Source: a virus. Taken from it: a stretch of DNA of 29,096 bases. The translations under genes and the position numbers were made by a program. Below the pieces are notes generated by a model. That model did no database searches, was not told where the DNA came from, and worked only from the letters and a program-made list of their open reading frames with translations. The stretch is taken from IMG/VR virus record IMGVR_UViG_3300017783_000142, positions 1 through 29,096 of that record; one strand, 5' to 3'. Each line of letters starts with the position of its first letter. Positions within the stretch are counted from its first letter, which is position 1. Below are positions 901 through 5,027 of this stretch, piece after piece.

Positions 901-1241
901 TGCAGCATTATATAGACGAATCAGATTATACATTTGTAGAGAATGATTCAGAAGAATTTTGGGGCATAAAACTAAGAAATGGTTCCCCTTACGCAGGTGT
1001 TATAGTAGTATATGGCACGGTTTCTATTAAAGAATCCGAAGAACTTGATATTGCAACTCTTTCGTTCTCTTATAATATCCAAGACGCTGGAGATTATAAC
1101 GTAGACGAGTTAGAAGGATCCGAGGAGTTTAAAAACTATTTAGGAGATTTGTTGCAAAGTATAATTAATGATAATGTAAAGGAAAAGAATGGACATAACA
1201 AATCAATTACCAACTCACATACTGAATCACCTTCTCAATAA
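900..1241 (+). CDS. Conserved hypothetical protein between uvsX and helicase
   Basis: 113 residues, acidic, no membrane segment. It starts at a TAATG overlap with the gene before it and has a strong Shine-Dalgarno AAGGAGG at 890-896. The first ~95 residues look folded (alternating beta-type segments GVIVVYGTVS and IATLSFSYNI). The last ~18 residues, rich in N, S and T, are encoded where the helicase gene overlaps this one by 53 bases in another frame, so the tail is probably unstructured and shaped by that overlap. No function recognised. Confidence 0.8.
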   Translation: MQHYIDESDYTFVENDSEEFWGIKLRNGSPYAGVIVVYGTVSIKESEELDIATLSFSYNIQDAGDYNVDELEGSEEFKNYLGDLLQSIINDNVKEKNGHNKSITNSHTESPSQ

Positions 1242-2586
1242 TGAGGACTATTGTAGACGGGTAATACCATACCTGCAAAAAGAGTATTTTGAGGGGACAC
1301 ATAAGACAGTCTTTGATCTTATTGTAAAGTTTGTTGCTAAACATAATAAATTACCTAGTGGTAGAATTCTCGACCTAGAATTAAGAAAGATTCAAGCCCC
1401 CGATGATATACTAAACAATGCTGCTAAATTAATCAATGAGATAAAAGAAAAGTCAGAAGTTGATACTGATTACCTAATTATAGAATCAGAGAAATGGTGC
1501 CGAGATCGGGCAGTATATAATGCTATCATGAATTCAATTCAGATTATTGATGGTAAAGATTCAGAAAAGACTGAAGGTGCTATACCAGAGATTCTATCTG
1601 AGGCCCTTGGAGTTTCATTCGACCAGGCTATCGGTCATGATTACATAGATAATTCAGAAGCACGTTATGAGTTCTATAATAGAACAGAAGAAAGAATACC
1701 ATTTGATATGGATTACTTTAATAAAATTACTAAAGGTGGGTTACCCAATAAAACACTCAACATTTGTCTAGCAGGTACAGGTGTGGGTAAATCTTTATTT
1801 ATGTGTCATTGTGCAGCATCTGTGCTAGAACAGGGTAAGAATGTTCTTTATATAACCATGGAAATGGCAGAAGAAAGAATAGCAGAACGTATTGATGCCA
1901 ATCTTATGGACTTACCAATTCAACAGCTAGAAAAATTACCGAAGAATGTATTCGATACTAAGATTCAAAAGATAGCACAAGCATCAATTGGTAAACTAAT
2001 TATTAAAGAATACCCTACTGGATCTGCTCATACTGGACATTTTAGGGCATTACTTAATGAACTGAAACTCAAAAAGAACTTTAGTCCGGATATGATTTAT
2101 ATTGATTATTTAAATATTTGTGCATCAAGCCGTATGAAAGGCATGGGCGGAAGTATAAATAGTTACACCTACATCAAAGCCATAGCAGAAGAAATGCGTG
2201 GTCTTGCTGTAGAGTTTAATGTACCGATAGTTTCGGCGACACAGACCACTAGGTCAGGATTCAGTAATACTGATGTCGGACTAGAGGATACATCGGAATC
2301 ATTTGGATTACCTGCAACGGCTGATCTTATGTTTGCTCTTATATCTACAGAGGAACTAGAAGAATTAGGCCAATTAATGGTTAAACAATTGAAAAACCGA
2401 TATAATGATCCAACGACATACAAGAGATTTGTTATTGGTGTGGATCGTTCCCGCATGAAATTATATGATGTAGAGGAATCTGCCCAAACCGATCTTATAG
2501 GTGACGGCAGTTCTATCCCCGATAAACCAATTGCAACGTGGGGAGATAGAGAAAATAAAGACACGTTTGCAGATTTTAATATATAG
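1189..2586 (+). CDS. 41: Replicative DNA helicase, gp41/DnaB-type
   Basis: 465 residues, about the size of T4 gp41. It unwinds the fork 5' to 3' as a hexamer with the gp61 primase. An N-terminal DnaB-like domain (about 1-150) includes ILNHLLNNEDY and EYFEG, which match the T4 pattern. The RecA-type ATPase has Walker A AGTGVGKS at 195-202, the LYITMEMAEE-RIDAN region at 220-238 and Walker B MIYIDYLN at 302-309. The KQLKNRY segment near 396-402 also matches T4. The ATG at 1189 is preferred because the N-terminal T4-like residues would otherwise be lost and AAAGGAAAAG sits just upstream. It overlaps the preceding gene by 53 bases, an unusually long overlap here. Confidence 0.96.
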   Translation: MDITNQLPTHILNHLLNNEDYCRRVIPYLQKEYFEGTHKTVFDLIVKFVAKHNKLPSGRILDLELRKIQAPDDILNNAAKLINEIKEKSEVDTDYLIIESEKWCRDRAVYNAIMNSIQIIDGKDSEKTEGAIPEILSEALGVSFDQAIGHDYIDNSEARYEFYNRTEERIPFDMDYFNKITKGGLPNKTLNICLAGTGVGKSLFMCHCAASVLEQGKNVLYITMEMAEERIAERIDANLMDLPIQQLEKLPKNVFDTKIQKIAQASIGKLIIKEYPTGSAHTGHFRALLNELKLKKNFSPDMIYIDYLNICASSRMKGMGGSINSYTYIKAIAEEMRGLAVEFNVPIVSATQTTRSGFSNTDVGLEDTSESFGLPATADLMFALISTEELEELGQLMVKQLKNRYNDPTTYKRFVIGVDRSRMKLYDVEESAQTDLIGDGSSIPDKPIATWGDRENKDTFADFNI

Positions 2587-3456: not shown

Positions 3457-3533
3457 GCGCCCGTAGCTCAATAGGATAGAGCAACGGCCTTCTAAGCCGT
3501 AGGTTAGAGGTTCGATTCCTCTCGGGTGCGCCA
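3457..3533 (+). tRNA. tRNA-Arg (anticodon UCU)
   Basis: A full cloverleaf can be drawn. The acceptor GCGCCCG pairs with CGGGTGC (one G-T) before discriminator G, and the CCA end is encoded. The anticodon stem ACGGC/GCCGT (3484-3488/3496-3500) encloses loop CTTCTAA with anticodon TCT at 3491-3493. The T arm carries GGTTCGATTCC. It reads AGA, an arginine codon used heavily in the genes around it and often rare in hosts, so it likely supports late phage translation. It is the only tRNA I could find in the window. Confidence 0.97.
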
Positions 3534-3966: not shown

Positions 3967-3995
3967 TTGACAAATGGTTTCAGCCGTAGTATAAT
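3967..3995 (+). promoter_or_regulatory. Sigma70-type promoter (early/middle)
   Basis: A perfect -35 TTGACA (3967-3972), a 17-base spacer and a perfect -10 TATAAT (3990-3995), followed by ATACC. It is one of six promoters in the window with the same spacing and the same ATA after the -10. Transcription would start near 4002, just upstream of AAGGAG (4014-4019) and the gene at 4027. Host RNA polymerase should use it without phage factors. Confidence 0.9.
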
Positions 3996-4026: not shown

Positions 4027-4368
4027 ATGAAAGAATATATGGATGAATTAATTACCAATACCAACGAACTACTACAGATTATGCAAGATCAACTTCATAA
4101 TCAGTTTGAACATGCTCGTGGAGATGTATACAGCTTTGAAGTAGGTAGAAATTACTTAAAACTACTAAGGACTCAGGAGAATGGCTCTGCCTCGGTTGTA
4201 GGTTTTATCGTCAAGAAAGCGCCAAAGTATATCGATAACAAGACCAATCAACCTTTTCAAGTTGGCGATATGTTAATGGCTGCAGGTTGGAGTAAACCTG
4301 CCACGAACTTTGCAAGAGGTAATGTATTAACTGGTTATAGTAATGTCAGATGGACAGGGATTGGTTAA
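4027..4368 (+). CDS. Conserved hypothetical phage protein
   Basis: 113 residues. The ATG at 4027 is chosen over 4009 because AAGGAG lies at 4014-4019, inside the longer version. The N-terminal third is helical (MDELITNTNELLQIMQDQL); then comes a domain with VYSFEVGRNYLKLLR and GFIVKK, and a C-terminal part with FQVGDMLMAAGW and NFARGNVLTGY. The 'GD-M-x-A-x-W ... P-A-x-NFARGNV' pattern recurs in small marine phage proteins in my memory, but no activity is known. It is the first gene behind the promoter at 3967. Confidence 0.75.
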   Translation: MKEYMDELITNTNELLQIMQDQLHNQFEHARGDVYSFEVGRNYLKLLRTQENGSASVVGFIVKKAPKYIDNKTNQPFQVGDMLMAAGWSKPATNFARGNVLTGYSNVRWTGIG

Positions 4369-4369
4369 G

Positions 4370-4537
4370 ATGCAAACAAAAGAATTAATAAATACACTTG
4401 TCGAGCTGACTATTTCAGAGGACTATGTAAGAAGTGAAGTCGGAGCACCAACACTAGAAGAAGAACAGCTGTGTTGTTGCGGTGAAGAACTAGAATCCTG
4501 TCCAGATTCCTACGTCCACATGACGTCAGGAGTCTAA
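4370..4537 (+). CDS. Possible small cysteine-rich protein
   Basis: 55 residues from the ATG at 4370, directly after the stop of the gene before it. An earlier in-frame ATG at 4343 would overlap that gene. It contains a CCCGEELESC cluster (about residues 25-34) that could bind a metal. The last ~12 codons lie inside a strong hairpin (4504-4535), so coding and RNA structure overlap, and there is no clear Shine-Dalgarno. It could be a real small gene or a chance frame leading into the RNA element. Confidence 0.4.
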   Translation: MQTKELINTLVELTISEDYVRSEVGAPTLEEEQLCCCGEELESCPDSYVHMTSGV

Positions 4538-4694
4538 GGCAGTCGTCACCTATCGGACGAAATAAAGCGAGAGGGGGTAGTGGCCGAACACTCATACGGA
4601 AATGAAGAAGTCCGTACAATGAGGGAAGAGTCCGGGGTCAGGGTGGTTACCTGTACCCCTCCAAATAACCTAAACTAGGAAAGGCCCCGGACTC
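4502..4694 (+). ncRNA. Candidate structured RNA, G+C-rich and hairpin-dense
   Basis: This stretch stands out: 60 of the 120 bases at 4561-4680 are G or C in an otherwise AT-rich genome, and no good frame crosses it. Hairpins I can draw: AGATTCCT+ACGTC (4504-4516) with GACGT (4522-4526) and AGGAGTCT (4528-4535), one G-T and one bulged C; TCGTC/GACGA (4543-4547/4556-4560); CTCAT+ACGGA (4591-4600) with TCCGT (4611-4615) and ATGAG (4619-4623); and a perfect 10-bp closing stem GAGTCCGGGG/CCCCGGACTC (4628-4637/4685-4694). Inside the last are CAGG/CCTG (4639-4642/4650-4653) and CCTA/TAGG (4669-4672/4676-4679). GGGGT (4634-4638) could instead pair with ACCCC (4655-4659), giving a switch. It may be a separate RNA or a leader of the gene at 4716. 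I do not recognise a known family. Confidence 0.6.
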
Positions 4695-4715
4695 AACTTA
4701 TTTTATGGAGTTATT

Positions 4716-5027
4716 ATGAATAATTATCTAGGTTCTCTGCGTTATGATCCGTCTGGCAGAAAAAGAAAGAACGTGCCAGGTCTTAAAAAGAAACGTAAAC
4801 TTAAACCACAATTCGCCGAATTTAAACCAGAGAAAAGTCTCGCGCAGATTAAAATAGAAGAATTTAATGCAAAATATCCATCTTACACAGGTGGTAGTAA
4901 GTATGAACCAGCTGAAGACCAGTCATGGAAAACAGAGGCCTCAAAGAACTTTACTGTTGCTCCTGCATACAATAAAGGTGCTTATCAAGTAATACCATCG
5001 ACTGATGTAAAACACATAGGAAAATAA
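4716..5027 (+). CDS. Basic hypothetical protein downstream of the RNA element
   Basis: 103 residues. The first third is very basic (PSGRKRKNVPGLKKKRKLKP), which suggests nucleic-acid binding. The rest is polar with YPSYTGG, EDQSWK and a C-terminal YQVIPSTDVKHIGK, and looks largely extended. GGAG (4707-4710) precedes the ATG at 4716. It begins 22 bases after the closing stem of the structured RNA, so the RNA may control it. No known domain recognised. Confidence 0.75.
   Translation: MNNYLGSLRYDPSGRKRKNVPGLKKKRKLKPQFAEFKPEKSLAQIKIEEFNAKYPSYTGGSKYEPAEDQSWKTEASKNFTVAPAYNKGAYQVIPSTDVKHIGK

Follow-up and report, generated by a model that had tools for sequence, protein, structure and literature searches.

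Positions 4498-4694 of the window, which is the whole 29,096-nucleotide stretch of a 29-kb virus record analysed here, are shown by sequence comparison to encode a conserved structured RNA. Its core (about 75 nt, 4543-4616) is shown to be an accessory element that lies between many different co-directional gene pairs in related uncultured marine T4-type phages. The core matches no Rfam family and is probably a new small phage RNA. Among the genes of the window are those for a DnaB-like helicase, ThyX, tRNA-Arg(UCU) and several small proteins, and the nearest named relatives of the helicase belong to Kyanoviridae phages and other marine T4-type phages. The locus is organized as follows:

3457-3533: tRNA-Arg(UCU) gene
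3967-3995, plus strand: sigma-70-like promoter, TTGACA-N17-TATAAT, recognized from sequence
4370-4537, plus strand: 55-aa gene, the upstream neighbour, ending CPDSYVHMTSGV; its last codons overlap the 5' hairpin of the RNA
4498-4694, plus strand: whole RNA, about 197 nt, with 15 full-length relatives
4498-4542, plus strand: 5' hairpin, stems 4498-4502/4538-4542, 4504-4511/4528-4535 and 4512-4516/4522-4526, with bulged C4527
4543-4574, plus strand: H-type pseudoknot, stem 1 4543-4547/4556-4560 and stem 2 4549-4555/4568-4574
4579-4592, plus strand: hairpin H3, AGUG/CACU, with the near-invariant loop NCCGAA; the stem varies and the loop is constant
4595-4616, plus strand: hairpin H4, UACGGA/UCCGUA, with the conserved loop AAUGAAGAAG (AUGARRA in the family) and compensatory changes
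4621-4694, plus strand: 3' module (module B), a nested pseudoknot confined to the window lineage
4716-5027, plus strand: 103-aa gene downstream of the RNA, with a weak match to PHROG 4593 and relatives that mostly lack the RNA

The gap of 178 bases between the 4370-4537 reading frame and the 4716-5027 gene is the longest among the selected genes of the first 9.7 kb. From its sequence, we infer that the promoter at 3967-3995 likely starts the transcript bearing the RNA, which lies approximately 500 nt downstream of it in the middle of the operon. The 55-aa gene has no match in Pfam or PHROG; homologous reading frames are present in L110, L112 and L119, and relatives occur across these phages. 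Its product contains several Cys residues and may bind zinc.

The original prediction described 4502-4694 as a G+C-rich, multi-hairpin candidate for a new phage RNA. At 4561-4680 the G+C content is indeed 50.0%, a level that just 0.5% of 120-base stretches attain, the value for the window being 35.1%. Among all 197-base stretches of the window, 4498-4694 ranks first in G+C. Folding of the 231-nt region yields -80.1 kcal/mol versus -63.1 +/- 4.8 kcal/mol for shuffled sequences (z -3.5; 1 of 200 shuffles as good), and the reverse strand of this region has a z of -1.3. In single-sequence energy folding, the core by itself gives a z of about 0; such folding misses its main features because these are pseudoknots. 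As judged from sequence, the core is established by its relatives and not by folding energies. The single-sequence minimum free energy structure was rejected as the true fold, since pseudoknots are left out of it and the relatives do not conserve its inner helix.

By collecting similar DNA upstream of relatives of the 103-aa gene, together with a pattern scan, 15 distinct full-length copies were placed in one alignment. The structure drawn by eye on this alignment has 63 pairs in 10 helices, three of which are pseudoknotted. These pairs are formed in 96.6% of the cells of the 15 relatives, and slid versions of the structure fall to 34-46%. The percentage paired is biased towards the structure, which was drawn from the same sequences. 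The compensatory changes are less affected: 12 pairs have changed on both sides, and none of 500 shuffles equals that number. The candidate RNA is thus borne out by its relatives, their covariation and the lack of an Rfam match. Its 3' end stands as predicted, and its start moves to 4498, outside the additional stem 4498-4502/4538-4542. The hairpin at 4504-4535 has 13 pairs (one U-G) and a single bulged C, as described, and the predicted 10-bp stem 4628-4637/4685-4694 has no mismatch; two further pairs bring it to 12, with one U-G among them. On the other hand, the suggestion that a GGGGU segment with two possible partners could act as a switch finds no support as a conserved feature, since the alternative pairing (RNAfold GGGUG/UACCC) is fully formed in only 2 of the 15 relatives.

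Protein coding, which had been set against the RNA reading in advance, reaches the first hairpin only, and the rest of the RNA is not overlapped. In the window and its closest kin, the 5' hairpin overlaps the last codons of the small gene; in the window, the final codons of a protein gene thus double as the first hairpin of an RNA. Three pairs of this hairpin carry compensatory changes among the 15 full-length relatives. The hairpin is also retained in relatives without the reading frame: L081 and L087 have a re-paired stem (AGAAGCC/GGCUUCU in L081), L092 and L093 a cUUCGg cap, and L004 and L097 a triloop cap. Because the hairpin persists where the gene is absent, the RNA pairing is under selection of its own. 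Relatives of the overlapping gene that lack the RNA also exist (L110 and L112).

The pseudoknot at the start of the core consists of stems of 5 bp and 7 bp, a one-base loop (A4548) and a 7-base loop (AAUAAAG, 4561-4567), with a single mismatch, A4552.G4571, in stem 2 of the window. In a loop-swap test free of hand alignment, in which the loop was found automatically along with the eight bases ending in the first GG of GGGG, a sequence's own loop/partner pairs had a mean of -6.6 kcal/mol versus -3.3 kcal/mol (sd 0.4) for swapped pairs. None of 20,000 permutations reached this value over the 21 distinct combinations, and the advantage of own over swapped combinations establishes the pseudoknot. 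Among 17 lineages, the core helices are paired in 93-100% of cells (99% for H4), and compensatory changes affect all 5 pairs of stem 1 and all 6 of H4, 4 of 6 in stem 2 and 2 of 4 in H3; the per-helix shuffle counts serve as supportive evidence because the segments were cut by hand. The H3 stem occurs as AGUG/CACU, GGUG/CACC, UAUG/CAUA and GAUG/CAUC around an unchanged loop.

Other readings of the core were considered and rejected. A leader peptide AUGAAAAAG in the H4 loop is contradicted by reading frames that differ beyond it and by L097, which lacks the AUG (by eye). A Rho-independent terminator at H4 does not fit either, since the U-runs begin some bases past the stem and several lineages lack them (by eye). 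As for a stop-codon readthrough pseudoknot, which would need one fixed frame open past the upstream stop, each of the three phases is represented, and several lineages close the frame within 0-2 codons.

In the 3' module, GAGGG (4621-4625) pairs with CCCUC (4657-4661) as a pseudoknot, the stem 4628-4639/4683-4694 comprises the 12 pairs mentioned above, and a short AGG/CCU hairpin is formed by 4640-4642/4650-4652. Furthermore, GGU (4645-4647) pairs with ACC (4668-4670), and this pairing changes to GGC/GCC in L011 and L099. Helices 7, 8 and 10 of the module show compensatory changes in 2, 2 and 1 pairs, respectively, among the 15 full-length relatives. The module is treated as a putative stabilizing 3' domain of the window lineage.

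At gathering cut-offs, Rfam 15 finds only the tRNA in the window; nothing relevant is found for 4300-4900 at E<=10, and the core-only relatives L119 and L085 have no match at E<=5. An earlier description of this RNA was not found in open-access full texts or Rfam, and one elsewhere is possible. The motif CGUCACC..GGACG..CCGAA presumably resembles the glutamine riboswitch, a candidate set aside in the absence of an Rfam match. The original prediction also mentioned the small stable RNAs that T4 makes from its tRNA region, with no match to them. Like T4 rnaC and rnaD, the RNA is small, belongs to a T4-type phage and is located close to a tRNA-Arg(UCU) gene. This gene is also found beside rnaC/rnaD in T4 and in the pelagiphage Mosig; the common anticodon UCU near small RNAs may be coincidental. 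In fact, a link to tRNA genes or to the T4 RNAs is not upheld. The core model scores at most 2.2 bits on rnaC/rnaD with filters off, which is background, with no match in the whole of T4; the RNA lies between many different genes; and rnaC ends in a T-arm-like hairpin (GGGUUCGAAUCCC) that is absent from the window RNA, the predicted folds being different. A similarity to rnaD noticed by eye (a UGAGUA loop) was discarded because of the same background score. GOLLD and ROOL are phage-encoded conserved RNAs without known function that are often near tRNA genes (PMC12286853); they are several times larger than the window RNA, which has no Rfam match.

The core was searched for with patterns on its near-invariant parts, which gave 43 distinct hits, 41 with the first stem; L330 and L336 lack this stem and are chance hits. 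In total, about 40 distinct sequences contain the core; they come from contigs of uncultured marine phages, which are metagenomic fragments. A covariance model of the core finds the family at E-values of 1e-5 to 1e-22 only at these loci, and nothing convincing in approximately 140 syntenic relatives without the RNA. The RNA is absent from 11 phage isolate records, including HTVC008M, Mosig, Melnitz-3, C48C1, S-CREM1, S-SRM01 and T4, which yield two weak matches inside coding genes, and pattern hits in bacterial genomes are chance hits by the core model. Its presence is sporadic: the 103-aa gene has over 580 relatives in viral contigs, and among the best 80 about ten carry the RNA; close ThyX relatives lack it (e.g., L110).

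In most lineages, a stop codon lies 5-10 nt ahead of the core, and 27-40 nt separate the H4 loop from the start of the next gene, the end of the RNA shortly preceding an A+U-rich stretch and a ribosome-binding site. The RNA is always on the coding strand of a co-directional gene pair. By BLAST clustering, the downstream genes fall into 9 groups and the upstream genes into several families. These counts are approximate; two of the 9 groups are doubtful singletons, namely L330 (a pattern hit without the pseudoknot) and L081 (a mis-called start but a genuine 4Fe-4S gene), and the small downstream proteins may hide remote kinship because the clustering used simple start-site rules. Among the downstream genes are members of the 103-aa family and of a 92-aa family, the CPDSYxHMTxGV gene, and genes for an HAD-like phosphatase, a 4Fe-4S protein and a cspA-like product, the HAD, cspA and 4Fe-4S genes being named by eye from motifs. 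The RNA lacks a terminator of its own, and a promoter dedicated to it is likewise missing in most lineages. A sigma-70-like promoter lies directly before the RNA in L085 and L200, and a promoter after the RNA separates it from the gene in L187 and L204.

Because the neighbours of the RNA are unrelated, its presence is sporadic and, in two lineages, a promoter follows it, gene-specific cis-regulation is unlikely and an RNA gene of its own is favoured. We tentatively infer that the element may be a small RNA gene, placed in the genome like a tRNA gene inside early operons, which would act in trans as a folded ligand; this is a plausible reading, short of a probable one. Phage tRNA genes likewise keep to one strand and sit tightly between genes, but these traits would suit a cis element as well. 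Transcription would take place within early operons or, in cases such as L085 and L200, from a promoter of the RNA itself, and the product would then be excised or remain as a stable fold. The NCCGAA and AUGARRA loops, together with the A-rich third loop of the pseudoknot, could form a surface to which a protein or RNA of phage or host would bind. In the window lineage, the core would have gained the 5' hairpin shared with the end of the protein gene, and the nested pseudoknot would lock and protect the 3' end.

In T-even phages, gp32 binds the pseudoknot of the gene 32 mRNA and represses or regulates gene 32, and a geometry of the 5/1/7/7 type is common for H-type pseudoknots. A cis translational operator of this kind, in which a phage protein would bind the pseudoknot and regulate the gene behind it, with several genes as one regulon, is a rather doubtful alternative. 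The T2 gene 32 leader pseudoknot (PMC3014915; PDB 2tpk), read directly as UGACC-A-GCUAUGA-GGUCA-UACAUCG-UCAUAGC with an H1 of 5 bp and an H2 of 7 bp (PMC5684407), shares with 4543-4574 the H-type geometry 5 bp-1 nt-7 bp-0-7 nt, and both belong to T4-type phages and lie upstream of a ribosome-binding site. However, the window RNA is not before gene 32, has two conserved hairpins after the pseudoknot, is followed by many unrelated genes and shows no noted sequence similarity to the T2 leader; the likeness is one of geometry, not of membership. The downstream groups seen encode mostly small proteins without known function, and gp32 was not recognized in any. The same downstream gene mostly occurs without the RNA, and the promoter in L187 and L204 intervenes between RNA and gene.

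It is improbable that the RNA is a cis antiterminator of the HK022 put kind, in which the nascent RNA would bind host RNA polymerase and allow readthrough of terminators in an early operon. The small fold of two hairpins plus a pseudoknot, its indifference to the genes that follow and its position directly after a promoter in L085 and L200 agree with such a role, and put RNAs are about 70 nt long, one of them located immediately at an early promoter and the other about 270 nt downstream of one (PMC9378689). The likeness to putL/putR is one of size and, in two lineages, of nearness to a promoter, and most copies here are inside operons, with the pseudoknot as the central feature. Moreover, the window copy is mid-operon, far behind its promoter, no downstream terminators are shown, and the L187/L204 copy precedes another promoter.

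HDV-like ribozymes have the helix order a-b-hairpin-a'-b' with a short pairing between the hairpin loop and the joining strand. Module B alone shares this nested double-pseudoknot order and the extra short pairing, yet a self-cleaving ribozyme that would free the RNA is very unlikely: the 15-copy alignment lacks an invariant active-site C in the strand before the last stem, there is no separate fourth helix, and no Rfam HDV family matches even at E<=10. Arbiol et al. reportedly described mobile regulatory cassettes in T4-type phages in 2010 (cited in PMC4177764), and a cassette boundary, with the repeats serving recombination between gene cassettes at the DNA level, would suit the scattered positions among cargo genes and the two copies, one complete and one reduced, that flank the cspA-like gene in L211, but it is highly improbable, as the stem sequences diverge freely and the compensatory changes and near-invariant loops indicate that RNA pairing is under selection, whereas homologous recombination has no need of such pairing.

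To return to the trans-acting RNA gene, the stems change freely but the surface they carry is near-invariant, which points to a specific target inside infected cells. The core could conceivably bind directly to the RNA polymerase of the host, or to a different central machine there, and reprogram it during early infection, as an RNA-only class of phage regulator in marine T4-type phages, although this is quite unlikely. Conserved phage small RNAs without known function are an old question, T4 RNAs C and D among them; since the core is small and sharply defined, with near-invariant loops and many natural variants, its binding partner can be fished for directly.

Some lineages vary the theme. 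In L081 and L087, a 4Fe-4S ferredoxin-like gene (about 3473-3892 in L081, reverse complement) replaces the 103-aa gene directly behind the RNA. The cspA-like cold-shock gene of L211 occupies 1157-1354 (reverse complement), and the second RNA copy there is without stem 1, for which an ordinary hairpin seems to substitute. In L184, L192 and L194, where the HAD gene lies downstream, the entire core seems to sit inside an additional closing stem, UUUCACCC/GGGUUGAAA or one of its variants.
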